From contig JAFGMP010000018.1 of the NCBI GenBank assembly GCA_016927495.1, positions 1 through 36,501 of the forward strand: a stretch of 36,501 nucleotides of DNA. The letters run 5' to 3'. Numbering within the stretch: the stretch's first letter is position 1; each line of letters begins with the position of its first letter. This DNA is from Candidatus Latescibacterota bacterium. GTDB taxonomy: Bacteria; Latescibacterota; Latescibacteria; Latescibacterales; Latescibacteraceae. Position numbers and translations under genes: made by a program. The notes beneath the pieces were generated by a model. The model searched no databases. It saw only the letters and a program-made list of their open reading frames with translations, and was not told the DNA's origin. Shown piece by piece: positions 7,057-29,252 of the stretch.

Positions 7057-8358
7057 TTAGCTAATCACCTTCTCATTTGCCGCATCCCACTTCATGGTCT
7101 TTTGCTGACGGTATGCTTCCACACCCATCTTGATGGCAACCATGGTGGAGCAGCCGAGGTCGACGTTGCAGTACAGTTTCTCGCCGTTTCTGATCGCATT
7201 GATGAAGTTCGCTTTCATCATGGAATGATCGCCGTTCTGCCGTTCGGAATGGAGCGTGACTTCGTCATAGCCCCTGAAGTTGTCTCTGAATTCCTGCTTG
7301 TAATCGCCATTACCGGTCAGAATCGGGCTGCCGTGATGCGAAAGGTCGAGCGTCGCATACTGTGCATATATGCGGTTCGGCTGCTGCGTGTCGTTGGTCA
7401 GCACGCTTGAGAGACGGATCATATAGTCTCCCGGATATTCGACAGACATCGAGAATACATCGGGAATATCCCTGCCGTCATCTTTATATATATACAGGCC
7501 GCCGTTAGCGGTTACGCGGCGCGGATAGGCACCGTTTTCTCCGGCGATAGCGATCTGCAGCGGTGCAAGAATATGATACAGAAGGTCGGTCGCTACGCCG
7601 CCGTTATACTGGAAGTACTTGCGGAAACGGAAGAAGTGCTCGGGATTCCAGGGAATTCGCGGTGCCAGTCCCCACTTATGGCCGAGCCACATATCCCAGT
7701 CGATAAAGTCGTCTCCGGGGTAACCCGGGCCGGCGGATTCGTCGATCTTGAACCAGATATTGAAAGCGCCTCCTTTAAAATTACGGTTATAGCTGCCCTC
7801 TGCCCAGGTAACTTTACCGACTTTGCCTTCGGTGATGAGTTTATGTGCGTTCCAGTACTGATCTTCCGATGTGTATTGCGGCCCTACCTGAAATACTTTG
7901 TTGGTGCGTTTTACACAATTACGAACCTCTATGGCCTGTTCGACAGTGAGTGTCATCGGTTTTTCGCAGTACACATGTTTTCCTGCTTCCATTGCATCGA
8001 TACACATCTTGGAGTGCCAGTGGTCGGGCGTTGCGATCAGAACGGCATCGATGTCTTTATTGTCTATTACTTTACGGTAATCGATGACACCTTCTCCGTT
8101 GCATATGCCGATAGCTCTGGTCAGACGGCGGCGGTATACGTCGCAGACCACAGGAACCTGCGCGTTCCACTCGGTGGCATGTTCCGTCAATTGCCTGAGG
8201 TGGCCGGTACCCATACCACCTACACCGATTACACCGAAATTGATCTTGTCGTTTGCGCCAAGTACTTTTGACGGTGTCAGACCGCCCAGCGATGCAACTC
8301 CTGCTACAGCCGCGGTTGTTTTTATAAAATTACGCCGCGAAGGTTTTCCTGAACTCAT
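7057..8358 (-). CDS. Tat-exported Gfo/Idh/MocA-family oxidoreductase
   Basis: NAD(P)-dependent sugar or sugar-acid oxidoreductase of 433 aa. The N-terminus carries a textbook twin-arginine signal, SRRNFIK (7-13), then a hydrophobic segment TTAAVAGVASLGGLTPSKVLG. The Rossmann motif GVIGVGGMGTGH starts at residue 42, the catalytic-type lysine is Lys133 in CEKP, and the C-terminal domain has GGVATDLLYHILAP (Asp258, His262). Length and order match the family. AAAGGAG precedes the ATG. Tat export, which carries folded cofactor-loaded proteins, is common for this family in Planctomycetes- and Bacteroidetes-like genomes. It is transcribed away from the RraA-to-sulfatase run across a 427-bp spacer, so it may share regulation and substrate with it. 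The substrate is unknown. Confidence 0.92.
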   Translation of the reverse strand: MSSGKPSRRNFIKTTAAVAGVASLGGLTPSKVLGANDKINFGVIGVGGMGTGHLRQLTEHATEWNAQVPVVCDVYRRRLTRAIGICNGEGVIDYRKVIDNKDIDAVLIATPDHWHSKMCIDAMEAGKHVYCEKPMTLTVEQAIEVRNCVKRTNKVFQVGPQYTSEDQYWNAHKLITEGKVGKVTWAEGSYNRNFKGGAFNIWFKIDESAGPGYPGDDFIDWDMWLGHKWGLAPRIPWNPEHFFRFRKYFQYNGGVATDLLYHILAPLQIAIAGENGAYPRRVTANGGLYIYKDDGRDIPDVFSMSVEYPGDYMIRLSSVLTNDTQQPNRIYAQYATLDLSHHGSPILTGNGDYKQEFRDNFRGYDEVTLHSERQNGDHSMMKANFINAIRNGEKLYCNVDLGCSTMVAIKMGVEAYRQQKTMKWDAANEKVIS

Positions 8359-8785
8359 TGAATACTCCTTTCATAATGCAAAAGATATTGGCGCCGGTGG
8401 GGAAAATGTCATTGAACTCAATATCAAATTTATCCCCGAAGCGCCTGTCTATATTTGTTAAAATATTATTCAGGTATGCTTGAAGATATGCTATAAAACA
8501 TCGGAATGCAAGTGTGGAATAATCGTAACAGAATTGTGGATTCAGCGCTGTATTGAATAAGCTCTTATCAATACATGAATTACAAATCGCCCGATGAGTA
8601 TCATTTTATTCGATTTTGTATATTCACCGGCCTGTAGTGTGTAAGCTGTGCTTGACTCCAAACACGTGAATAGGTATAATGATGCTTAGGGATTTCTGCG
8701 TTTTTTAATAGAGCAAATCCGGTATTAATAAAAATTATTTTTGTATTATTAATTCTGATCGTTGTTAAAACTCAAAGGAGAAAAA
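8359..8785. other. Divergent intergenic region
   Basis: AT-rich 427-bp spacer between the oxidoreductase and the RraA-like gene, with no credible ORF. It contains the + strand promoter described separately; the - strand promoter was not identified with confidence. No riboswitch fold was recognised. Its size leaves room for regulator binding, but no regulator gene lies next to it. Confidence 0.6.
8652..8680 (+). promoter_or_regulatory. Near-consensus sigma-70 promoter of the RraA-to-sulfatase run
   Basis: TTGACT (8652-8657) and TATAAT (8675-8680) are separated by exactly 17 bp, with only the last base of the -35 box off consensus. The transcript would start near 8687, leaving a leader of about 100 nt before ATG 8786. 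The imperfect palindrome CACGTG (8663-8668) sits in the spacer and could serve as an operator; that role is only a suggestion. Confidence 0.75.
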
Positions 8786-9508
8786 ATGGCTGAGTACCGT
8801 CACCTCGATATCGATCCCATGGAGCGAGTGAAACGTTATAAACGATTTTACGGCGGGCTCATATTTGACGCTCTCTGGTCTCTCGGGGTCAAGGAGACAA
8901 TGTTGTCGCAAAAAATATATCCGCTGCGTGACGACATGATTATTGCCGGATTTGCCCTGACGGTGAAAATCCACAATCATGCCGAATCTGACGAAACAAT
9001 TGCAAATCGCGGTATGGAGGGCTGGGGCGGTGGCCCGAACCAGCGTAAAATCATGAAAGCGGTAACTCCGGGCTGTGTTATTTGCGCTGAAACAGGCCCG
9101 AACAATCTGGTGGCGCAATGGGGTGAAATGAGTTGTCATCTCGCACGTAACAATGGCGCCACTGGTCTTGTTATGGCCGGAAATGTCCGTGACACCCGTA
9201 TCATTCTTCAGATGGAGAATTTCCCGGTATTCACCATGGGAACAACCGCCAATGCACGGACAGGATGGAAGGTAAACGAGATTAACGAAATCATCTTTAT
9301 GCCCGGCCATCTCAAACACTCGGTTCGGGTTTTCCCCGGTGACTTTATTTTCGGCGACACCGATGGCGTTCAGATTATACCGAAGGAAATGACCGATGAG
9401 GTAATGCTTATATGTGAGGAAATTCTCGATAAAGAAAAATACCAGCGCAAAGAAATCGTCGAGGGTCTTCCGGTCGAGGAGGTTTACCGGAAATACGGGA
9501 ATTTATAA
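8786..9508 (+). CDS. RraA-like aldolase/decarboxylase family protein
   Basis: Cytoplasmic 240-aa protein of the RraA / HMG-CHA aldolase fold, a family that cleaves or decarboxylates 4-hydroxy-2-oxo acids using a divalent metal. ATG 8786 is used because AAAGGAG lies 6 bp upstream; the in-frame TTG at 8762 precedes that ribosome site. Family signature: WGEMSCHLARNNGATGLVM followed by AGNVRD, with Arg135 and Asp136 as the conserved metal/substrate pair and Glu114 in the GE motif. The usual DG before xVRD is AG here. It is the first gene after the strong promoter, so it may finish catabolism of a sugar acid made available by the downstream exported hydrolases and carrier. The true substrate cannot be deduced. 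Confidence 0.87.
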   Translation: MAEYRHLDIDPMERVKRYKRFYGGLIFDALWSLGVKETMLSQKIYPLRDDMIIAGFALTVKIHNHAESDETIANRGMEGWGGGPNQRKIMKAVTPGCVICAETGPNNLVAQWGEMSCHLARNNGATGLVMAGNVRDTRIILQMENFPVFTMGTTANARTGWKVNEINEIIFMPGHLKHSVRVFPGDFIFGDTDGVQIIPKEMTDEVMLICEEILDKEKYQRKEIVEGLPVEEVYRKYGNL

Positions 9509-9576
9509 TGATTTATACCGGATAGTAATTAAATCACGGCAATAATGAATCAACGTTCTATTTTTAAGAGACCAAA

Positions 9577-9858
9577 ATGGATACATTTACCAATCCACTG
9601 TTTGATTATTTTCAGTCGATCACCTGGGAAGGCCCGGCAATTGTTGTGGCGCTGTTTCTGGTGGTTTTTATTATTCTCAGGCAGTATAATTTAATTTTTA
9701 TCATTATCATTACGCTGTTTTTCGCGGCTCTGACAAAAAAACTCATGATAATTGACGGGAAAACCGTTGAACCTGTCATAAGTGTGTCCATGGTGATATA
9801 CATTACCGGTTGCGGAGTGATTTTACTGCTTACGTTAAAGAAATACCTGAAGTTTTGA
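9577..9858 (+). CDS. Small integral membrane protein
   Basis: Protein of 93 aa with three hydrophobic stretches: about residues 18-36 (WEGPAIVVALFLVVFIILR), 38-55 (NLIFIIIITLFFAALTKK) and 66-86 (VISVSMVIYITGCGVILLLT). The two intervening short loops are polar, and the C-terminus is basic (LKKYLKF). No known family was recognised. AAGAG lies about 8 bp upstream of the ATG, a modest ribosome site. The position, 68 bp after the RraA-like gene and 95 bp before the esterase, suggests co-transcription. It could be an accessory subunit or a stray small gene; the complementary strand is also open here, so the call rests on hydrophobicity and context. Confidence 0.55.
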   Translation: MDTFTNPLFDYFQSITWEGPAIVVALFLVVFIILRQYNLIFIIIITLFFAALTKKLMIIDGKTVEPVISVSMVIYITGCGVILLLTLKKYLKF

Positions 9859-9953
9859 AGTATTGCTCTCAAAAAAAGTTTTAATGTAATCAAACCGTGA
9901 TCTCAATACTCAAATACATAATCATAAACCATTCTTTCCGTGAGGTATATCGG

Positions 9954-12098
9954 ATGGAACAACGCAAACAGAATCTTTTGATCCGGTCATACATTACTTT
10001 CTGCATTGTTTTTTTGTTTTTTCCCGCTTTTCTCTATACCCAGCAGCAAAAAGACACACGGCATGAAACGCTTAGGGATGCCGATCACTATGAAATCAGA
10101 ATGGCTCCGGTATCGAATCTCGACGAATGGAAAGTCCGCCGTGAAGAGGTTCGTGAAACGCTGCTGCTGCGAGCAGGACTCTGGCCCGAACCGGAACGGA
10201 CACCACTAAATGCCAAGGTGTTCGATGAGAGAAAAGGCGATGGTTTTACCGTATCGAAGGTTTATTTCGAGAGCCTCCCCGGTTTTTACGCGACCGGAAA
10301 CCTGTACCGTCCCACAAAAGGCAAACCACCATATCCGGCAGTGGTAACACCGCACGGGCACTGGCAGTACGGACGTCTTCAGAACTCGGAAATGGGATCG
10401 ATTCCCGGGCGGTGCATAGATTTTGCGCGTATGGGCTTTGTGGTCTTTAGCATCGATATGGTCGGGTATAACGATTCCTTCCAGCTTCCCCATGACCCCA
10501 GTAAAAGTCTTGCGCAGCTAAAAGCCGATAAACCACTGCCCTACGAACCGCGCCAAATGCGTGCGGATTTTCACTTCCCCGAAGCTGAACTGTATGGATT
10601 CAATCTCGGCGGTGTGCAGCTCTGGAATGGCATCAGAACCATAGATTTCCTGTGCAGCATGCCTTATGTCGATCCCGAAAGAATCGGTGTTACCGGAGCA
10701 TCAGGCGGCGCGACGCAGACTATTTTCCTTATGACGGCAGATGACCGTGTCAAGGTTGCTGCCCCGGTCAACATTATCGGTGCAGCTAAACATCCGGGCT
10801 GCGGTTGCGAGAATTTACCGGGACTCTGGCTTGACACGTCGACTGTCGAAATGGCCGCCGCTTTTGCGCCGAAACCTTTGCTCTTGATGTCCGCGACCGA
10901 AGATCCCTGGACAAACAATACTCCCGACCGTGAGTATCCGATGATAAGAAAATATTATTCCCTTTACGGCGCCGAAAATATGCTGAAAAATGTCCATATA
11001 AAGGCAGCGCACAATTATAATGCCGAAACACGGGCTGCCGTGTATGACTGGTTCTGCAAACATCTGAAAAGCTCCGAACCGCCGATAAAAAATCCGGTTG
11101 CTGTGTCCAACGAACTGAAAAATCTCGGCGATCTGCGTGTTTTCCCCGATAAAATACTTCCTGAGAGTGCACTCAACGGATTTCAGATCATAGCGAACTG
11201 GGAAAAGGCATCGGAGGAAAACCTTGAAGGTTATTACCCCCAAGCCGAAAGAGATTATAAGGATTTTGTCACCATATTCCGTAACAAACTGTGCGACATA
11301 CTTGCGGTCGGGATATCACCCGCGAAACATGAACCGAATGATCCGTTCAGCGGATTGAAAAAAAGTGAGATAATAACCAGGCAAGTCGGCGCCTACACGC
11401 ATTATTCGGCATTTTTCGGCAACTATGGAAAGGGTGATTATTTTGAAATCGAGTCGGTTAAACCTCAGGGGCCTGTGAAAGAGTATATTCTTTTGGTATT
11501 CCCTGAAACATGGGGAGGATTGTTTCTCCGGGATACCGATAACCTGAAACCCGAGATCATCAATCTTCTTGAAAAAGGGTATCTGGTAGCCCGTATCCAC
11601 GGCTATGCGTCAGGCAAACTGGCAATCCCGCAGAATACGCTTGATTCATACAATTGGTCGAATGTCTATAACAGGAACAACCGTCTTAACGGCATTCAGG
11701 ATATCGCGACAGCGGTGTACTGCATATCAAACAGCCCAAATCCTGAATCGGCGGGGAAGCCTAAGCTGACTGTAATCGGATGGGGCGAATGCGGAATACC
11801 CACAGCTTTTGCGTGTGCTGCAATTGGAGGCGCCGACCGTGTTATCGTCGACATGAACGGCAGTGATCCGGGATATGACGGCGAACTGGTTAAACTGATG
11901 CCGTATGGCGCTATCAAACGTATCGGTGATTTCAGAACTGCAACTCTGCTGCTTATGCAGAACAACCTTATCCTGTGCAATGCGGGAAGCACTTTTGATA
12001 AGGACTGGTATAAAAACCGGGCAGTTAAACTTGAATTTGAAGACAATCTTAAATTTCGATCGGATGAAACATGTGATAGCATTTGTAAATTATTTTGA
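9954..12098 (+). CDS. Exported two-domain alpha/beta hydrolase (acetyl xylan esterase-like)
   Basis: Predicted exported esterase of 714 aa. ATG 9954 is preferred over the GTG at 9897: GTGAGG lies 8 bp upstream and a Sec signal or anchor starts at once (basic MEQRKQ, hydrophobic SYITFCIVFLFFPAFLYTQ, residues 12-30). Domain 1 (about 60-372) is an active-looking hydrolase with HGHWQYG (134-140), nucleophile elbow GVTGASGGATQT (Ser250), acid near Asp317 in SATEDPW and His353 in AAHNYN. Domain 2 (about 400-714) repeats a hydrolase-like plan, but its elbow reads GWGECGIP (609-616), with no serine at the nucleophile position, so it is probably non-catalytic. In the same run as the MFS carrier and sulfatase. 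Confidence 0.88.
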   Translation: MEQRKQNLLIRSYITFCIVFLFFPAFLYTQQQKDTRHETLRDADHYEIRMAPVSNLDEWKVRREEVRETLLLRAGLWPEPERTPLNAKVFDERKGDGFTVSKVYFESLPGFYATGNLYRPTKGKPPYPAVVTPHGHWQYGRLQNSEMGSIPGRCIDFARMGFVVFSIDMVGYNDSFQLPHDPSKSLAQLKADKPLPYEPRQMRADFHFPEAELYGFNLGGVQLWNGIRTIDFLCSMPYVDPERIGVTGASGGATQTIFLMTADDRVKVAAPVNIIGAAKHPGCGCENLPGLWLDTSTVEMAAAFAPKPLLLMSATEDPWTNNTPDREYPMIRKYYSLYGAENMLKNVHIKAAHNYNAETRAAVYDWFCKHLKSSEPPIKNPVAVSNELKNLGDLRVFPDKILPESALNGFQIIANWEKASEENLEGYYPQAERDYKDFVTIFRNKLCDILAVGISPAKHEPNDPFSGLKKSEIITRQVGAYTHYSAFFGNYGKGDYFEIESVKPQGPVKEYILLVFPETWGGLFLRDTDNLKPEIINLLEKGYLVARIHGYASGKLAIPQNTLDSYNWSNVYNRNNRLNGIQDIATAVYCISNSPNPESAGKPKLTVIGWGECGIPTAFACAAIGGADRVIVDMNGSDPGYDGELVKLMPYGAIKRIGDFRTATLLLMQNNLILCNAGSTFDKDWYKNRAVKLEFEDNLKFRSDETCDSICKLF

Positions 12099-12158
12099 TT
12101 GGCCAAACGGGGGAAAGAGCTCTCATCAATAGAATCATCCGGTAAAAAAGAGGATATC

Positions 12159-13526
12159 ATGAATGAGAAAAATGAAGTCAGTCCGGAACTGAATTTTGCT
12201 AAAGCCAATATATACCAGTTTTTACGCGGAGTTGGCGGGCCTGTATGGGGTTCAGGGGCTGCTTATTACGGGCCGCTTATGGCGCTTCTGGGATTCCTCG
12301 GGGCGTCTGAATTCTACAACGGTGTCGTAAATGCATTGTTCTGGCTCGGATTTATACTTACCCAGGTACCGGCAGCATATTATTCCGAACGTCTTCGCTA
12401 CAAAAAATGGGCCATGGGTTTCATTTTTATCCTTGCCGGGGCAAGTATGTTCGTTTTCGGTTTCACTCTCTTTATAACCGGCGGAACCAACCTTAAACTG
12501 ATGCTCATTCTCTTTATAATCTGTTATGGTATCGCAACCATCATTTCAGGCTCGGCGACACCCCTCATATTCAGCCTTCTGTTCAAGATTATTCCTCCGA
12601 AAAAGCTGGGAAGCTGGCTCGGTGTTTTTTTTATGATGATGTCTGTCGGCGGCCTTCTCGGCGGGCCTGTGGTAAAAAAAATTCTCCAAATGGGTTATCC
12701 CGCAGCATTCGAAATTCTCTTTATGTCAACGTTTGCCTTTGCCGTAGCAATGGCTATTGCCACATGGCTCATAAATGAGCCGGAAGGAGAACTGGCACCT
12801 CAAAAAGAAAATTTCGGCGTCTACATAAAGCATATTATCTCGATCATGAAAAACGATAAAAACCTCGTACGGTTTTTTGTCGGAATGTGGATAGTTGTCG
12901 GGCATTACATCTGTGTGACATTCTACAGCAGATACGCCCTTACCGGAGGATTCGGTATAAACGAGGATCAGGCTGGATTATTTGTCAGCATGAACCTTCT
13001 CGGTTACCTCATGGCAAGCCTTGGCCCCCTGTTCATTGTCCTTTATCCGCTGAGCCTGATTACGAAGATGATTGGCGCGAAACTGCCCTTATCGGTTAAC
13101 ATATTCGGCGCGGGCTGGATCGCCGACCGTTTCGGGCCCAAGTATACGCTGATTACATTTCAGATCGTCGCTTTTCTTGGTGTGACTATCGCCATGATGG
13201 CACGAAATGTCTATATGTTTTATGTAGTCTGGGTTTTCGCAGGTTTCGCGCAGATTTGCAATAACATCGGCTATTCCAACATGACCCTGCTCAGTTGTCC
13301 GATTCAGGATAAATCATCCTACGTGGGACTGGTGAATTTTGCGGTATTCCCGTTTGTTGTGATTGTGCCTATGGTTGTCGGCGCGCTCATTGAGCGGAAC
13401 ATTCTGAACTATACGAGCACATTTATTATTTCGATGATCATGATGGTCATCGCAATTCTGTATTTTGTCTTTTTTGTCGATAATCCCCAGGGATATAAAG
13501 ACATGAAAGCTCAAAAGTCAGCATAA
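12159..13526 (+). CDS. MFS transporter
   Basis: Major facilitator superfamily carrier of 455 aa with about twelve membrane helices. ATG 12159 follows AAAAGAGGA by 6 bp; the in-frame TTG at 12099 precedes that site. N-terminal half: helices from about residue 30, ending in ATWLINEPEGE. A cytoplasmic loop of about 30 residues follows (QKENFGVYIKHIISIMKNDK), then the C-terminal half with the MFS loop motif GWIADRFGPKYTL. It lies 60 bp after the exported esterase and 96 bp before the exported carbon-nitrogen hydrolase, so it probably imports their product. Substrate not assignable from sequence; a sugar, sugar acid or related small organic anion is likely. Confidence 0.9.
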   Translation: MNEKNEVSPELNFAKANIYQFLRGVGGPVWGSGAAYYGPLMALLGFLGASEFYNGVVNALFWLGFILTQVPAAYYSERLRYKKWAMGFIFILAGASMFVFGFTLFITGGTNLKLMLILFIICYGIATIISGSATPLIFSLLFKIIPPKKLGSWLGVFFMMMSVGGLLGGPVVKKILQMGYPAAFEILFMSTFAFAVAMAIATWLINEPEGELAPQKENFGVYIKHIISIMKNDKNLVRFFVGMWIVVGHYICVTFYSRYALTGGFGINEDQAGLFVSMNLLGYLMASLGPLFIVLYPLSLITKMIGAKLPLSVNIFGAGWIADRFGPKYTLITFQIVAFLGVTIAMMARNVYMFYVVWVFAGFAQICNNIGYSNMTLLSCPIQDKSSYVGLVNFAVFPFVVIVPMVVGALIERNILNYTSTFIISMIMMVIAILYFVFFVDNPQGYKDMKAQKSA

Positions 13527-13622
13527 ACCATTATACTGTAATGACTTTCATCCCGGTTTGAGGGCAATGACAATTACATAACCAATAACCCAAACATGCG
13601 GTTATCCGCGGAGGGCAGGATA

Positions 13623-14720
13623 ATGAAGTTACGGCAATATACGATCCCACTTGTGATAGTCACTGTTATTATGGTTCTGTCTCATCCGGCTTATGCACAA
13701 TTCAAACGTCCCAGCGAATTTACGCCCCGTAAAGTCGTTGTCGGTACGGTCATCCACGGTTACTACGGAGTCCCATACCCCGGCCTTGACAAGCGTTTGA
13801 CGGAAGTGGAAAACCTGATCGACAAGGTTGCAACCGAAAGCGAAAAAAAATACCCCGGTGAGGGTCTCGATCTGGTTGTTTTGCCCGAGGAAGTCATCAC
13901 CATCGGGAAAGGACGGACTGCAAAAGACAGGTCGGTACCGCTCAGGGGGCCGGTACTCGACCGTATGGGGAAAAAAGCGCGACAGTACTCGACCTATCTG
14001 GTGGTTCCGCTCGATCTTACAGAGGAAAACGGGACAACAACAAATGCAGCGGTTCTCCTCGACCGTGGGGGGAAAGTAGTGGGTATTTACCGCAAGGTAC
14101 ATCTTGTCGATGCCCAGGGGAAAACGCCGCTCGAGGGAGGACACACACCGGGCACGGAATATCCGGTGTTTGACTGCGATTTCGGACGGCTTGCCGTGCA
14201 GATATGCTATGATCTCAATTTCCCCGAAGGATGGCAGACGCTTTTTGATAAGGGTGTAGAGATCATTGTGGTGCCAACCATGTCGCCCCAGACGGTCCGT
14301 CCTACTGTTTATGCATCAAACGGCCATTGTTATATAGTCACCAGTAATCACCGTAATAATGCCACTATTTTCAATCCCGGCGGCCGTATCGTTGCCCAGA
14401 TAGATGATGGCGACAACGAACTGGTATCCGGCACCCTCAGACTGACCCAGAATGCGGTCCTGGTGCATCGTATCGACCTGTCCTACGCTATTGTTTCATG
14501 GTCAGCTACACTCGGTGATGGCCGTCTGTTTACGGAAAAATATGGCGACAATGTCGGGTATTCCTACTACCGTGATGAGGATTACGGCATATTCTGGTCG
14601 AACGACCCGATTTTACCTGTCAGACGTATGGTACAGGAACTCGGTCTTGTCGAAATGGATGAGCAATTGAAACGTTCAAAACAGGTACAGGATGAAGTAC
14701 GGGGTGGACCCGCGAAATAG
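13623..14720 (+). CDS. Exported carbon-nitrogen hydrolase (nitrilase superfamily)
   Basis: Amidase/nitrilase-fold enzyme of 365 aa that should break a C-N bond using Glu-Lys-Cys chemistry. Visible residues are Glu89 in VVLPEEV, Lys158 in IYRKVHL, Cys195 in VQICYDLNFPEG and a second glutamate, Glu171, in LEGGHTPG. ATG 13623 has GGAGGGCAGG upstream. Residues 1-26 form a clear Sec signal peptide (basic MKLRQ, hydrophobic core, cleavage after PAYA). Export is unusual, since most members act in the cytoplasm. The C-terminal 60 residues beyond the core (YSYYRDEDYGIFW, then charged helix) are extra. The stop codon is 16 bp before the sulfatase start, so the two are surely co-transcribed and may act on one substrate. 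Confidence 0.9.
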   Translation: MKLRQYTIPLVIVTVIMVLSHPAYAQFKRPSEFTPRKVVVGTVIHGYYGVPYPGLDKRLTEVENLIDKVATESEKKYPGEGLDLVVLPEEVITIGKGRTAKDRSVPLRGPVLDRMGKKARQYSTYLVVPLDLTEENGTTTNAAVLLDRGGKVVGIYRKVHLVDAQGKTPLEGGHTPGTEYPVFDCDFGRLAVQICYDLNFPEGWQTLFDKGVEIIVVPTMSPQTVRPTVYASNGHCYIVTSNHRNNATIFNPGGRIVAQIDDGDNELVSGTLRLTQNAVLVHRIDLSYAIVSWSATLGDGRLFTEKYGDNVGYSYYRDEDYGIFWSNDPILPVRRMVQELGLVEMDEQLKRSKQVQDEVRGGPAK

Positions 14721-14736
14721 AATCGGAGGATACTAC

Positions 14737-16158
14737 ATGAGTTATATCACACGGCGTTATTTTGCGAGCAGGTCGGCAAAAGTGCTTGCCGGTTCGGTCG
14801 CTGCGGTTTCGTTGTTCGGTTCGGCGCTTCCGGTATCGGCGCAAAAGCGGAAACCCAATTTCATCATTCTGTTTGCCGATGATATGGGCTATGGCGACTG
14901 GGAGGGCGGTGGCCATCCGACTATCAGGACACCGAATCTGATGAAAATGGCGCGTGAAGGCGTTACAATATCCCAGTTTTACTCGGGCTGCGCGGTGTGT
15001 TCACCCTCACGGGCTGCACTGCTTACCGGGCGAAATTATATCAGAACGGGTGTAACGAAGGTATTCTTCCCAGGCGATGAGCGCGGTATGCCGGTCAGTG
15101 AAATAACGATTGCAGATGCGTTGAAATCCCATGGTTATACCACAGCCTGCATCGGTAAATGGCACCTCGGCGGCGAACCTGCATTCCGCCCGGATAAACA
15201 GGGATTTGATTTCTACTTTGGGCTTCTTCACAGCAACAATATGTTCGATTTCAAGTTGTACCGTAACAATGAGATTATCGAGGACCCCGTGGATCAATCG
15301 ACCTTAACAAAACGATACACTGAAGAGGCTATCGGATTTATCGAACGTGAGCAGGAAAGGCCGTTTTTCCTGTATCTGCCCTACACTATGCCCCATGTGC
15401 CGGTGTATGCGTCTGAAAAATTTTTAGGTAAATCGCTTAACGGTATCTATGGCGATGCTGTCGAGGAAATCGATTGGAGCGTCAAGCAACTTATAGACTC
15501 TCTTAAAAGGCTGGGATTGAGTGAGAATACACTGGTAATGTTCACAAGCGATAACGGCCCGGCATCCTATAAGCCGGTGCCCAGAGGCACTGCTGGTATT
15601 TTCAGAGGCTGCAAGGGTGACACATGGGAAGGTGGCATGCGTGTGCCATTCATTGCATGGTGGCCGGGCACATTACCGGCTGGTACGGTTTCACATGCTG
15701 TCGGTTCCGTGGTCGACCTGTTCCCGACATGCCTTGCCGCAACTGGTATACCGCTTCCGGATGACCGGCCATATGATGGTATAGACCTTTCACCCGTTTT
15801 CGACGGCAACTCACGACCCGAAAGGACAATTTATTATTACAGGGAGGATGAGTTGTACGCTGTCCGTCACGGCAAGTGGAAACTACACTTTAAGGTATAC
15901 GATTATCCGGGAGGGGACTATCATTCTGAACCCAGAAAAGTCAGGACACCGGAACAACCGTTGTTGTTCGATCTTGAAATTGATCCCTCAGAGCAGTACG
16001 AATGTGCGTCTGAAAATCCCGACGTAGTAAAAAGGTTAATAACAATTGCTGACAACTACAGCGCTGAAATCGTCCATAACAACGAAAACAGGGATTTAAT
16101 CGTTTGGTTTAACAATGAATTTACGAAAAAAGATCATAAATTGACGGGTAAAAACTGA
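14737..16158 (+). CDS. Exported sulfatase, formylglycine (cysteine) type
   Basis: Sulfate ester hydrolase of the alkaline-phosphatase-like fold, 473 aa. ATG 14737 follows GGAGG by 7 bp; an in-frame ATG at 14692 overlaps the previous gene. The N-terminus (ITRRYFASRSAKVLAGSVAA) looks like a twin-arginine signal, cleavage near VSA-QKR. The core begins PNFIILFADDMGYGDW with metal-binding Asp48-Asp49. The maturation signature CSPSRAALLTGR gives Cys88 as the residue converted to formylglycine. TSDNGPASYK is the second metal motif. It resembles arylsulfatase A / GalNAc-6-sulfatase types. A maturing enzyme is not in this window. Cytoplasmic FGly formation before Tat export of the folded protein would be consistent. 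Last gene of the run. Confidence 0.94.
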   Translation: MSYITRRYFASRSAKVLAGSVAAVSLFGSALPVSAQKRKPNFIILFADDMGYGDWEGGGHPTIRTPNLMKMAREGVTISQFYSGCAVCSPSRAALLTGRNYIRTGVTKVFFPGDERGMPVSEITIADALKSHGYTTACIGKWHLGGEPAFRPDKQGFDFYFGLLHSNNMFDFKLYRNNEIIEDPVDQSTLTKRYTEEAIGFIEREQERPFFLYLPYTMPHVPVYASEKFLGKSLNGIYGDAVEEIDWSVKQLIDSLKRLGLSENTLVMFTSDNGPASYKPVPRGTAGIFRGCKGDTWEGGMRVPFIAWWPGTLPAGTVSHAVGSVVDLFPTCLAATGIPLPDDRPYDGIDLSPVFDGNSRPERTIYYYREDELYAVRHGKWKLHFKVYDYPGGDYHSEPRKVRTPEQPLLFDLEIDPSEQYECASENPDVVKRLITIADNYSAEIVHNNENRDLIVWFNNEFTKKDHKLTGKN

Positions 16159-18673: not shown

Positions 18674-19996
18674 TCAGGGCATACGGTCAAGCTCCACAAC
18701 AATTACGGTGTCGTTTGGGTCACGGTTACTCTCCGGCAGTTTAATCACTGTCCCCATGTTCGTCGTTTCAAATACAACAGGTGTGCCGTCGAATAACGAA
18801 ACTTTTTTGATTGACGACTTTAACTCCGGCAGAGCGATAACGGAACCGGTATCAGAAAGCACATGGACATAAAGTGTATTACCTTTATGAGTTGTAACCC
18901 CCCAACTCTGCGGAGGAATAGGTCCGCCATTGGTGCCGTAAATACTTTCACCATTCTTTTCGAGCCAGTCACCGATTTCTTTGAGACGGTCGACCTGACG
19001 CTGCTCGATCTTTCCGTTCGGCATTGGACCGACATTAAGAAGCAGGTTGCCACCGCCTCCGACTGTACTTACCAAAATGTTGATACACTCCTTTAAGGAT
19101 TTCATGGTATCATCAGGTTTCCATGCCCACTGTCTGCAGATTGTCATGCATGTTTCCCAAGGCCGGTTAACCTGGTAATTGCCGACACGCTGTTCGGGAG
19201 TGTCGAAATCACCTGTATAATCCTTATCGGATTCGGTACTACCCTCCATTCCCCTGCGGCCTTTGTCGACTCGGTTGTTGATGATAATCCCCGGCTGCAA
19301 ACTGCGGATATACTTGTATAGATCCAGCCCACGATCATGTGTCCAGGGTTCTTCCCACTCACCGTCAAACCACATAACCCCGAGCGGCCCGTAATTGGTG
19401 ATCAACTCTCGCAGATGAGTCTTCATGTACGTTACATACCTGTCCATATCAGGTTTTTGCCCTGCCGGTAACTTGTAGCCGGGACCGCCGCGTGACGAAA
19501 TATTATAATCCGGCTGATACCAGTCGAGGATGGAATAATAGGTGCAGAATGTAATGCCACTCTGTTTACAAGCTTCCGAAAGCTCTTTTATCACATCTCG
19601 TTTGAATGGTGTCGACAAAATATTGTAGGATGTGGTCTTTGTATTCCACAGGCAGAATCCGTCATGGTGTTTCGAAGTGATTACAACGTATTTCATTCCG
19701 GCGGCTTTTGCAACATTTACCCATTCGACAGCGTTAAATTCTGTCAGATTAAACTGCTTGTACAGATTGTCGTATTCCTCAACAGACACTTGTTGACCCC
19801 GCGACCAACCTATCTCGGTTCCTTTCAGACTGACAGGCCCCCAGTGGATAAACAAACCGAATTTCGCGTCCTTCCACCACTGCATTTCCTCAGGAGTTGT
19901 TTGTATCGAAGATTGTGCACTTGCATGTAGTGGTAAAAGGATACACAAACAAATGGTAATAATAACACCTTTAAAAATCTTATTTTTTACTTTCAT
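18674..19996 (-). CDS. Exported GH29 alpha-L-fucosidase
   Basis: Retaining fucosidase of 440 aa releasing L-fucose from glycans outside the cytoplasm. A Sec signal peptide (hydrophobic GVIITICLCILLPLHASA, cleavage after ASA near residue 27) and a GGAG site 8 bp before the ATG support the start. GH29 landmarks: KFGLFIHWGP (45-54), TSKHHDGFCLWNT (107-119), nucleophile Asp211 in VMWFDGEW and the probable acid/base Glu268 in DFDTPEQR, 57 residues later, as in the broad-specificity subfamily. GGGGNLLLNVGP and a C-terminal beta-sandwich complete it. It is downstream of L-fucose isomerase on the same strand (89 bp), so one transcript would release and begin to metabolise fucose. Confidence 0.95.
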   Translation of the reverse strand: MKVKNKIFKGVIITICLCILLPLHASAQSSIQTTPEEMQWWKDAKFGLFIHWGPVSLKGTEIGWSRGQQVSVEEYDNLYKQFNLTEFNAVEWVNVAKAAGMKYVVITSKHHDGFCLWNTKTTSYNILSTPFKRDVIKELSEACKQSGITFCTYYSILDWYQPDYNISSRGGPGYKLPAGQKPDMDRYVTYMKTHLRELITNYGPLGVMWFDGEWEEPWTHDRGLDLYKYIRSLQPGIIINNRVDKGRRGMEGSTESDKDYTGDFDTPEQRVGNYQVNRPWETCMTICRQWAWKPDDTMKSLKECINILVSTVGGGGNLLLNVGPMPNGKIEQRQVDRLKEIGDWLEKNGESIYGTNGGPIPPQSWGVTTHKGNTLYVHVLSDTGSVIALPELKSSIKKVSLFDGTPVVFETTNMGTVIKLPESNRDPNDTVIVVELDRMP

Positions 19997-20085: not shown

Positions 20086-21951
20086 TTACCCGTACAGCGG
20101 GCCAAGTTTCTCACAGACCCTGAAATCATCGCCTCCGTAACGGTCCCACATAGTCGGCCTGAAGATATCTTTACTATCAACATTATGCATGTCCACCGGA
20201 ATACGAAGCATGGAGTTCAGGGTAATCATATCTGCGGCGATGAGGCCGAATGAGTTGCCGTCATGGTTCGGGCCGATTTTCGACATATACTCGAAAGAGG
20301 ACATTCCGCGTGGCGCCCAGAACGTTTCGGGCCAGGTCGGATCGGTACGTTTACTTACATGGTCGGCCACTTTGTCAGGTAGATCCACAGTTTTGCCCTC
20401 CACAACCGAGAAGGTTAGCTGTTCACCTACTACATTATAACGATAAGCTGTCATGGGAATTCCACCCGGTGTCCTGTAATGGCTCGAAAGTCCGTCACCA
20501 AGAAAATATTCAAGGCTGGCGGCTATATAACCTGTTCCTTTGATTGCCGAATCGATAAGTTTCTGCTGAAGTTTCTTATCGGAACGGAAAGCTTCTGCAA
20601 CTTCCAAAATATCGATACCCTTTTTTCCTGCTACCAGCTTGATTACATCCAGCGCATAATCGAGTGCCCCGGCGCCTGAATTTCGTTTGTCAATGAAACC
20701 ACCCGGTGCAATTGAACTGATATTGACTTTAGTCGCTTTTTTAATGCTTTCGGCAGTCCAGTTCGTACGGATATCGGCAAAAAGCTGCGGCAGACCGGTA
20801 AGAAGATACGCCACAAGCATTCCGATGGCGTTTTTGCTGTCATTTTCCGTCGCGACGATGAATGGCGGACGGTATCCGTTCCAGTCGAACGAACTATTCA
20901 GCACAGATTCTGTAAGGTCAAAATTCGGGTAGAGATCAGTCCATGCACGTTGCCCCTGTGTTCCCGATGCTATGGCATTATATCCCTGAGCATGTTCCAC
21001 ATCGGCTTTGAATCCCTGGCGTTTACCGATTTTCGGGTCGGCAAGTTTCGGATTTCCTATCATCATATCGCGAACTATCAAAGTCATTTTAAGACATTCG
21101 CGGAGAAGATCATCCGGCGGAAGCGGTCTTGTTCCGGCGCCAAAATCAAAGGTAAACTTCTCTTTCATGAACCTGAATGCACGGTCGAGTTCGTCATGGT
21201 CGTAAAATCCACGATCCATTCGTCCTTTAATGGCAACCATATCAACCGATACAGTACCCATCCCAAGGCTTTTAAGGAAGATATTTCGGCGGACATCGGA
21301 ACCGATTATTCCCATTGACACACTTCCGAGAGAAAGGTAATTCTTTCCCCTCATTTCACCAACGGAAGCAGCAGCCCGTGCAAAACGTAAAATTCGCTCG
21401 GCTACATATGGAGCCAAATCGTTGTCTTCAGTCTCGAGATCGGGATTATAAATCGAAAAAATCGGCCGTTCCTTCTCATCCATAGCCGCACAGAACGCTT
21501 TGAGCCAGACTGCTCCGGGCCGGTCTGTCTGATTGAGGCCGTACGCAGCCTGCTGCCACTCGCTGCTGCCGATTCCCTGCGCAGCCGACATAAGTTCATC
21601 GCTGTAAGCCCATGAGCGGCTTACCCATATATTGGCGCAGACACCTTCCTTTGCATAGTATTCCTGGGCAATCGCACCGGTTCGCGCTCCATAAACGATT
21701 TCCGGTGCAGTAATAACCCGCACCGGTGTCCCGTCGGGGAGTTTCACCTTGCTGCTGATCAATCTGTATACCCTTTCAACCATACACCAGGTCTTTTCAG
21801 TATTACTTTCATATGCTCCGGTTCTGCCATCCGCGACCGGTGTTATGGCAATCGTAGGAACAGGGCCGACAAGACTTCTCGGAGTCTCTGTAAATGACCG
21901 TATGGATGAAGAAAACGTTTTGAAATCGGGCAAAGTACTGCTTGTTTTCAT
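20086..21951 (-). CDS. fucI: L-fucose isomerase
   Basis: Isomerase converting L-fucose to L-fuculose (also active on D-arabinose in the family), 621 aa, slightly longer than the roughly 590 aa of the E. coli enzyme. AAGGAG precedes the ATG. Candidate Mn2+ ligands have the family spacing: Glu369 in VATENDSKNA, Asp393 in LFADIRTNW (24 residues apart, as between the E. coli Glu and Asp ligands) and His563 in GPNHDGNS. Early motifs include APEIVYGARTGA and WVSRSWAYSDE. The order is typical of FucI rather than AraA. It is followed by the GH29 fucosidase. Fuculokinase and fuculose-phosphate aldolase genes are not in this window. Confidence 0.93.
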   Translation of the reverse strand: MKTSSTLPDFKTFSSSIRSFTETPRSLVGPVPTIAITPVADGRTGAYESNTEKTWCMVERVYRLISSKVKLPDGTPVRVITAPEIVYGARTGAIAQEYYAKEGVCANIWVSRSWAYSDELMSAAQGIGSSEWQQAAYGLNQTDRPGAVWLKAFCAAMDEKERPIFSIYNPDLETEDNDLAPYVAERILRFARAAASVGEMRGKNYLSLGSVSMGIIGSDVRRNIFLKSLGMGTVSVDMVAIKGRMDRGFYDHDELDRAFRFMKEKFTFDFGAGTRPLPPDDLLRECLKMTLIVRDMMIGNPKLADPKIGKRQGFKADVEHAQGYNAIASGTQGQRAWTDLYPNFDLTESVLNSSFDWNGYRPPFIVATENDSKNAIGMLVAYLLTGLPQLFADIRTNWTAESIKKATKVNISSIAPGGFIDKRNSGAGALDYALDVIKLVAGKKGIDILEVAEAFRSDKKLQQKLIDSAIKGTGYIAASLEYFLGDGLSSHYRTPGGIPMTAYRYNVVGEQLTFSVVEGKTVDLPDKVADHVSKRTDPTWPETFWAPRGMSSFEYMSKIGPNHDGNSFGLIAADMITLNSMLRIPVDMHNVDSKDIFRPTMWDRYGGDDFRVCEKLGPLYG

Positions 21952-28448: not shown

Positions 28449-29252
28449 TTATGGTGAATCGGTAATTGCACCGTAAAATTCGGTTCTGCGACATTCAAAC
28501 AGATCGTTGAATCTATTGATATGTTTGTCGCTGGCAACCGTCGGATCGATATCGACCACTGCTATATGGTCGCCTTCTCCGGGTGCACTGGCAAGTACCG
28601 AACCATCGGGCGCTGTTATCTGGCTTGCTCCTGTGAAGGTGAAGGATCTGTCGCCAAAAGATTCTGTGCCGTAACGATTGGCCGTTATTGCAAAGACTCT
28701 GTTTTCGAGGCATCTGATTACCATGGCACGCTGTCCCCACGGGAGAATGAAATTCACGGGATGACAGATTATCTGAGCGCCCTGTAAAGCCAGAACACGG
28801 ATCGATTCCGGGAAAAACCAGTCGAAACAGACTATTATGCCCAATTTTACTCCATTGAAATCATACACCTGAAAGGGAATATCACCCGGCTTAAAAAAAA
28901 GGTTTTCGGCACCGAACAGATGATTTTTACGGTATAGTTCACGGCTGCCGTCTGGCCTGAGCAGCGCCGCCGAATTGAAAATGCTGTCTCCTGAAGATTC
29001 GGCAAATCCCACAACAAGCCCGCAGGACTTTTCACGAGCTAATTTCTGCAGTGAATCGAGGGTCGGTGATGAATCGAACGGTTCGGCCATACCGGCTAAT
29101 TCTTCCTTTGCCGAAAACGTGTATCCGGTGTTAGCGAGTTCCGGAAGAATAAGCAGTTCCGCATCAGCTTTTTTTATGAGATGTTTCATTGTTCCAAGAT
29201 TTGCTTCGATATTCTTTAATTCAGGTTTAAATTGGATATAACCCGCTTTCAT
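28449..29252 (-). CDS. Carbon-nitrogen hydrolase (nitrilase superfamily), cytoplasmic
   Basis: Amidase-fold enzyme of 267 aa with Glu38 in LILPELANTGYTF, Lys109 in LYRKNHLFG, Glu116 just after, and Cys142 in IIVCFDWFFPES. There is no signal peptide, in contrast to the exported member at 13623. Length is normal for omega-amidase, N-carbamoylputrescine amidase and related branches; the exact branch is not assignable. AAGGA precedes the ATG. It shares a transcript with the rhomboid protease gene, an association that may be only operonic convenience. Confidence 0.9.
   Translation of the reverse strand: MKAGYIQFKPELKNIEANLGTMKHLIKKADAELLILPELANTGYTFSAKEELAGMAEPFDSSPTLDSLQKLAREKSCGLVVGFAESSGDSIFNSAALLRPDGSRELYRKNHLFGAENLFFKPGDIPFQVYDFNGVKLGIIVCFDWFFPESIRVLALQGAQIICHPVNFILPWGQRAMVIRCLENRVFAITANRYGTESFGDRSFTFTGASQITAPDGSVLASAPGEGDHIAVVDIDPTVASDKHINRFNDLFECRRTEFYGAITDSP

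Follow-up and report, generated by a model that had tools for sequence, protein, structure and literature searches.

Layout of the locus

The window analysed here (the whole stretch of 36,501 nucleotides) is one complete contig of the 6.1 Mb draft genome of a Candidatus Latescibacterota bacterium (G000), and the system in question is a run of six same-strand genes at 8786–16158 that encodes an RraA-like protein, a small membrane protein, an esterase, an MFS carrier, a C-N hydrolase, and a sulfatase (Table 1). With moderate confidence, we read this cluster as an operon for the uptake and breakdown of ester-protected sugar acids, with interchangeable accessory hydrolases at its 3' end. For comparison we used three relatives: one from the same genus (G001), one from the same family (G002), and G003.

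The six same-strand genes of the first-pass annotation of this DNA are open reading frames with good Shine-Dalgarno-like sequences, and its family assignments also hold; the AXE1 Pfam match of the esterase is marginal (24.6 bits, just over the cut-off). The intergenic gaps are, in order, 68, 95, 60, 96, and 16 bp, so that the spacing of 60–96 bp given earlier describes four of them and not the last. Terminators between the genes, which had been named as speaking against an operon, do not appear: no terminator-like hairpin was found in any of the gaps, nor in the 150 bp downstream of the sulfatase gene. The six genes may be co-transcribed, and a sigma70-like promoter sequence lies about 105 bp upstream of the RraA start codon. 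A match at 11 of 12 consensus positions is expected about 0.02 times in the AT-rich intergenic region upstream of RraA, but 1.25 times at random in the whole window, where two are found; the near-consensus promoter noted before is therefore unlikely to be a chance match locally and unremarkable at window scale. Three products had been called exported, and their N-termini agree, with predicted Sec-like hydrophobic segments in the esterase and the C-N hydrolase and a twin-arginine motif (TRRYFA) in the sulfatase. The 93-aa membrane protein matches nothing in Pfam or NCBIfam, and has weak paralogues outside the corresponding G001 locus. Among the window reading frames scanned there was no match to a SusC/SusD-type pair, and the cluster does not have the makeup of a SusC/D-type polysaccharide utilisation locus.

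Table 1. Features of the cluster and its divergent neighbour (positions in the window; TM, transmembrane)
Feature	Position	Strand	Evidence
RraA-like protein, 240 aa	8786..9508	+	Pfam PF03737, 83 bits
Membrane protein, 93 aa, ~3 TM segments	9577..9858	+	Hydropathy
Esterase, exported (predicted), 714 aa, BT1017-like	9954..12098	+	phmmer to 6goc, E 2e-38; Foldseek
MFS carrier, 455 aa	12159..13526	+	PF07690 (MFS_1), 104 bits
C-N hydrolase, exported (predicted), 365 aa	13623..14720	+	PF00795, 106 bits
Sulfatase, Tat-type export (predicted), 473 aa	14737..16158	+	PF00884, 223 bits
Gfo/Idh/MocA oxidoreductase, divergent, Tat signal SRRNFIKTT	7057..8358	-	Pfam GFO_IDH_MocA, 86.5 bits, and TAT_signal
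Sigma70-like promoter, TTGACT-17-TATAAT	8652..8680	+	11/12 consensus match only

Conservation in related genomes

On contig G001:C107 the genes for RraA, the esterase, and the MFS carrier follow one another in the same order and on the same strand, with identities of 76, 64, and 69–70%. Two Gfo/Idh/MocA genes (at 66 and 69% identity), divergent and both with predicted Tat-exported products, border this trio, where the window has one. A tandem-cupin gene lies upstream of RraA and a SASA acetylesterase gene downstream of the MFS gene; the membrane protein, C-N hydrolase, and sulfatase genes are not at this locus. G002 keeps the RraA–esterase pair alone, and in G003 the RraA, esterase, and MFS genes are dispersed over three contigs, with RraA orthologues at 67–76% identity across the three relatives. 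Because G001 and G002 keep RraA–esterase, with or without the MFS gene, but not the C-N hydrolase and sulfatase at these places, the six-gene unit belongs to this genome alone of those searched, and its front half is an older unit. Conservation of the six-gene order in related genomes had been named as a check; the order has no match in G001–G003, and a scan of genome contigs with the esterase found six loci, one of them on G002's own contig and none with that order. The conserved unit is the divergent Gfo gene together with RraA–esterase–MFS, accompanied in relatives by the SASA acetylesterase, so the bounds first drawn around the cluster left out one of its members. The C-N hydrolase and sulfatase are a lineage-specific 3' addition, at the place taken by SASA in the G001 locus.

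In G003 the esterase gene still has a SASA gene in its vicinity, and the two SASA proteins of G003 and G001 share 55% identity. Between the G003 esterase and SASA genes lies an ATPase/RloB-like pair (by eye), in which a small gene accompanies one for an AAA-type ATPase (L060:4408-6284, G003:C223). The G003 MFS orthologue (68% identity) starts about 25 bp after a gene for N-acylglucosamine 2-epimerase (AGE).

The C-N hydrolase has an E89-K158-C195 triad that is invariant in eight aligned homologues, which places it in the nitrilase/C-N hydrolase superfamily. Its one close orthologue among 100 genomes (57–60% identity) is in G001 on another contig (L057:9831-12070, G001:C102), is also predicted to be exported, and overlaps by one base a BNR/neuraminidase-like gene; of the other C-N hydrolase loci that were fetched from genomes of the phylum, none has a sulfatase, MFS, RraA, or esterase gene within ~1.5 kb. 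A second C-N hydrolase of the window, apparently cytoplasmic, adjoins a rhomboid gene at 28449–29252. The sulfatase carries a CSPSR formylglycine site (motif scan), as well as the sulfatase core and C-terminal domain of type I (S1) sulfatases, to which it belongs. Its closest solved relative is human N-acetylgalactosamine-6-sulfatase (GALNS; E 1.2e-82), from which it differs in having a bacterial Tat-type secretion signal. Its nearest relative of all is a paralogue at 59% identity within the window genome, while the best match in G001–G003 reaches 41% and is not an orthologue; sulfatase matches cover 36 stretches in the window genome against 12, 12, and 2 in the relatives. In the first-pass annotation, the esterase, C-N hydrolase, and sulfatase were proposed to share a single small substrate that is sulfated and acylated and bears an amide. 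Gene order does not support this idea: the G001 C-N hydrolase orthologue lies apart, the sulfatase has no orthologue in G001–G003, and the other C-N hydrolase loci fetched have none of the other partners close by. Searches of the literature for RraA–sulfatase operons and for C-N hydrolase–sulfatase clusters returned nothing.

Predicted activities of the core proteins

The esterase is closest to BT1017 from the RG-II (rhamnogalacturonan-II) locus of Bacteroides thetaiotaomicron (PDB 6goc; phmmer E 2.1e-38, profile E 9.5e-46). A structural search by Foldseek with its AlphaFold model (pLDDT 82.5, pTM 0.85) also ranked 6goc first (E 6.7e-20); the next matches include acetyl-xylan-esterase-like structures from Bacteroides as well as CE15 glucuronoyl esterases. 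BT1017 is an RG-II pectin methylesterase in which S282/D352/H388 are catalytic and H201/H244/C315/C317 bind Zn (PMC7939467). In the window esterase these map to S250/D317/H353 and to H136/H180/C283/C285, with H180 in a loosely aligned stretch, and all are invariant across 19 homologues. The two proteins thus have in common an alpha/beta-hydrolase with a Ser-Asp-His triad, a Zn site of two His and two Cys, and an oxyanion His that doubles as a Zn ligand. This catalytic domain is the N-terminal half of the window esterase; its C-terminal half is a second alpha/beta-hydrolase-like domain with a GxGxxG turn that lacks the serine in nearly all homologues, whereas BT1017 has DUF3826 there. Identity to BT1017 is ~24%, and unlike BT1017 the esterase is not in a pectin/SusCD locus. 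Judged by sequence, fold, triad, and Zn site, it is probably a BT1017-type carbohydrate esterase, a family that we take to be CE19 in CAZy; methylesterase activity on pectin or RG-II is a putative property. Two more alpha/beta-hydrolase esterases, one AXE1-like (below the cut-off) and one of the BD-FAE family, are encoded at the contig start (120–2198).

For the RraA-like protein, alignment to the Pseudomonas putida HMG/CHA aldolase (3noj) identifies the catalytic Arg as R135 and the metal-binding Asp as D136. Glu (E114) occupies the acidic position that lies 21 residues ahead of the Arg, giving a motif E-X20-R-D that is common to seven RraA homologues from four genomes; position +3 is I or Y. 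The metal motif of class II pyruvate aldolases is reportedly D-X20-R-D or G-X20-R-D-X2-E/D, as Mazurkewich et al. are said to have described in 2014. The protein is like the RraA/HMG-CHA aldolase family in its profile-defined fold family and in the Arg-Asp pair for metal and enolate, and unlike those aldolases in having Glu for Asp ahead of X20-R-D. The family includes FlDet, a KDGR dehydratase/decarboxylase of alginate assimilation that acts on 2-keto-3-deoxy-D-glucarate and whose gene adjoins an alginate lyase gene (PMC8563752); the two are likened at family level and by a sugar-acid gene neighbourhood, not by FlDet sequence. A second RraA paralogue, 45–48% identical to that of the window, occurs in a conserved cluster in G000, G001, and G003 (L062, L063, L064) with two nucleotidyltransferase-like genes and a GHMP/sugar-kinase-like gene (named by eye). 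We considered these paralogues as a guide to function and set them aside, as such neighbours give no direct function.

The Gfo/Idh/MocA enzyme has a homologue in G003 (58–59% identity) that adjoins an HpaI/GarL-type aldolase (L133:5762-8165, G003:C82); a SASA gene and one for a beta-helix protein that contains a GH141 insertion domain are nearby. This aldolase scores 164 bits to 4-hydroxy-2-oxoheptanedioate aldolase and 162 bits to 2-dehydro-3-deoxyglucarate aldolase, and the pairing fits, without proving, a pyruvate-aldolase role for RraA. We also considered the Gfo protein as a GH109 N-acetylgalactosaminidase and rejected it; the protein matches 2ixa only weakly (30 bits), and DgpA and other oxidoreductases score higher.

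Proposed function and alternatives

In the operon as we propose it, the exported serine esterase would take the ester off a sugar acid, the Tat-exported Gfo/Idh/MocA enzyme would oxidise the sugar, and the MFS carrier would bring the free sugar acid into the cell. There a 2-keto-3-deoxy sugar acid derived from it may be cleaved by the RraA-like protein, working as a pyruvate aldolase that uses a divalent metal or as a keto-acid lyase. With the C-N hydrolase and sulfatase, the strain could also use substrate forms that carry amide or sulfate groups. Mainly because two of the esterase's neighbour families hydrolyse uronic acid esters, we propose uronate-type sugars, derived from algal or plant glycans, as the most likely substrates. 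The catabolic operon of the first-pass annotation, with its exported esterase, carrier, and sugar-acid-type enzyme, survives in this form, upheld by the RraA–esterase–MFS order kept with divergent Gfo genes in G001, the RraA–esterase pair in G002, the invariant esterase residues, and the tie to Gfo. For Latescibacteria, single-cell genomes led to predictions that pectin, alginate, ulvan, and fucan are degraded and that as many as 14 sulfatases are present (PMC4454575). The gene sets predicted there include esterases, sulfatases, and sugar symporters; the window operon resembles them in its esterase, sulfatase, and sugar carrier, and departs from them in having no internal lyase or glycoside hydrolase and in relying on RraA in the cytoplasm. 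It varies a known kind of system and is not a new one, and it is locally interesting.

Several observations weigh against sugar acids as the substrate. The operon encodes no uronate isomerase, KDG kinase, lyase, or sugar-acid dehydratase. RraA scores well below every NCBIfam equivalog cut-off (54.8 against 179 bits for LigK/HMG aldolase, 45 against 304.5 for TIGR02798), as does the G003 HpaI/GarL-type aldolase, and the MFS carrier has no significant PDB relative and matches named sugar-acid carrier models weakly. BT1017-type esterases may, according to the BT1017 authors, act beyond methylated pectin (PMC7939467). In addition, G003 has the RraA, esterase, and MFS genes at unlinked places, and its pairing of the MFS gene with AGE points to amino sugars.

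A rival reading is an operon for an N-acyl amino sugar or a sialic-acid-like nine-carbon keto acid, in which SASA or the esterase would deacetylate the substrate, the MFS carrier would import it, RraA would replace neuraminate lyase with AGE acting next, and the C-N hydrolase would remove the N-acyl group. The G003 epimerase next to the MFS gene scores 437 bits to N-acyl-D-glucosamine 2-epimerase, the BNR/neuraminidase-like gene overlaps the G001 C-N hydrolase orthologue, SASA comes after the MFS gene in G001 and is close to the esterase gene in G003, and AGE, SASA, and neuraminate lyase have all been reported in Latescibacteria single-cell genomes (PMC4454575). DHDPS-family genes are present in four of the four genomes (G000–G003), and they may or may not include a neuraminate lyase. 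However, because AGE-family genes are abundant in these genomes, at 10–18 matches each, the single pairing in G003 could be a coincidence; in G001 the AGE orthologue is away from the operon locus, the names BNR and SASA span many non-sialic substrates, and the esterase's relatives include uronate-ester esterases. We regard this operon as unlikely.

It is also decidedly unlikely that the six genes have no common substrate, the C-N hydrolase and sulfatase having arrived independently behind a small conserved operon so that the six-gene pathway is an artefact of orientation. Their absence from the G001 locus, the different partners of the C-N hydrolase orthologue, and the many sulfatases of this genome would all be accounted for, but the two genes are 16 bp apart, no terminator-like site follows the MFS gene, and both hydrolases are predicted to be exported, as are the esterase and Gfo. 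At the other extreme, an undescribed route in which the BT1017-type esterase, exported amidase, and sulfatase together unmask amidated or sulfated uronates for cleavage by a new RraA-type lyase with Glu-X20-Arg-Asp is a long shot.

The absence of any other glycoside hydrolase, claimed earlier, is true of 8786–16158 and not of the window, where an alpha-L-fucosidase gene (GH29; 18674–19996, - strand, Pfam 302 bits) lies 2.5 kb downstream of the sulfatase end of the cluster, adjacent to an L-fucose isomerase gene (20086–21951, - strand). Use of a sulfated, acetylated fucan, with the operon's sulfatase desulfating, the esterase deacetylating, and fucose and uronic acid then catabolised, would match these genes and the fucan use predicted for the phylum (PMC4454575), but is very unlikely, as two housekeeping-type genes (MazG and a dihydrolipoamide-dehydrogenase-like gene) intervene, the fucose genes are on the opposite strand and not within the G001 locus fetched, and neither RraA nor the C-N hydrolase has an obvious fucan role.

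If the core of the sugar-acid operon works as proposed, it would connect, outside Bacteroidota, esterases of the BT1017 type with sugar-acid lyases of the RraA type, and would give a testable function to RraA homologues that are usually annotated as RNase regulators. If true, it would also show uncultured Latescibacterota varying accessory hydrolases, SASA in one case and an amidase with a sulfatase in another, around a fixed uptake core.

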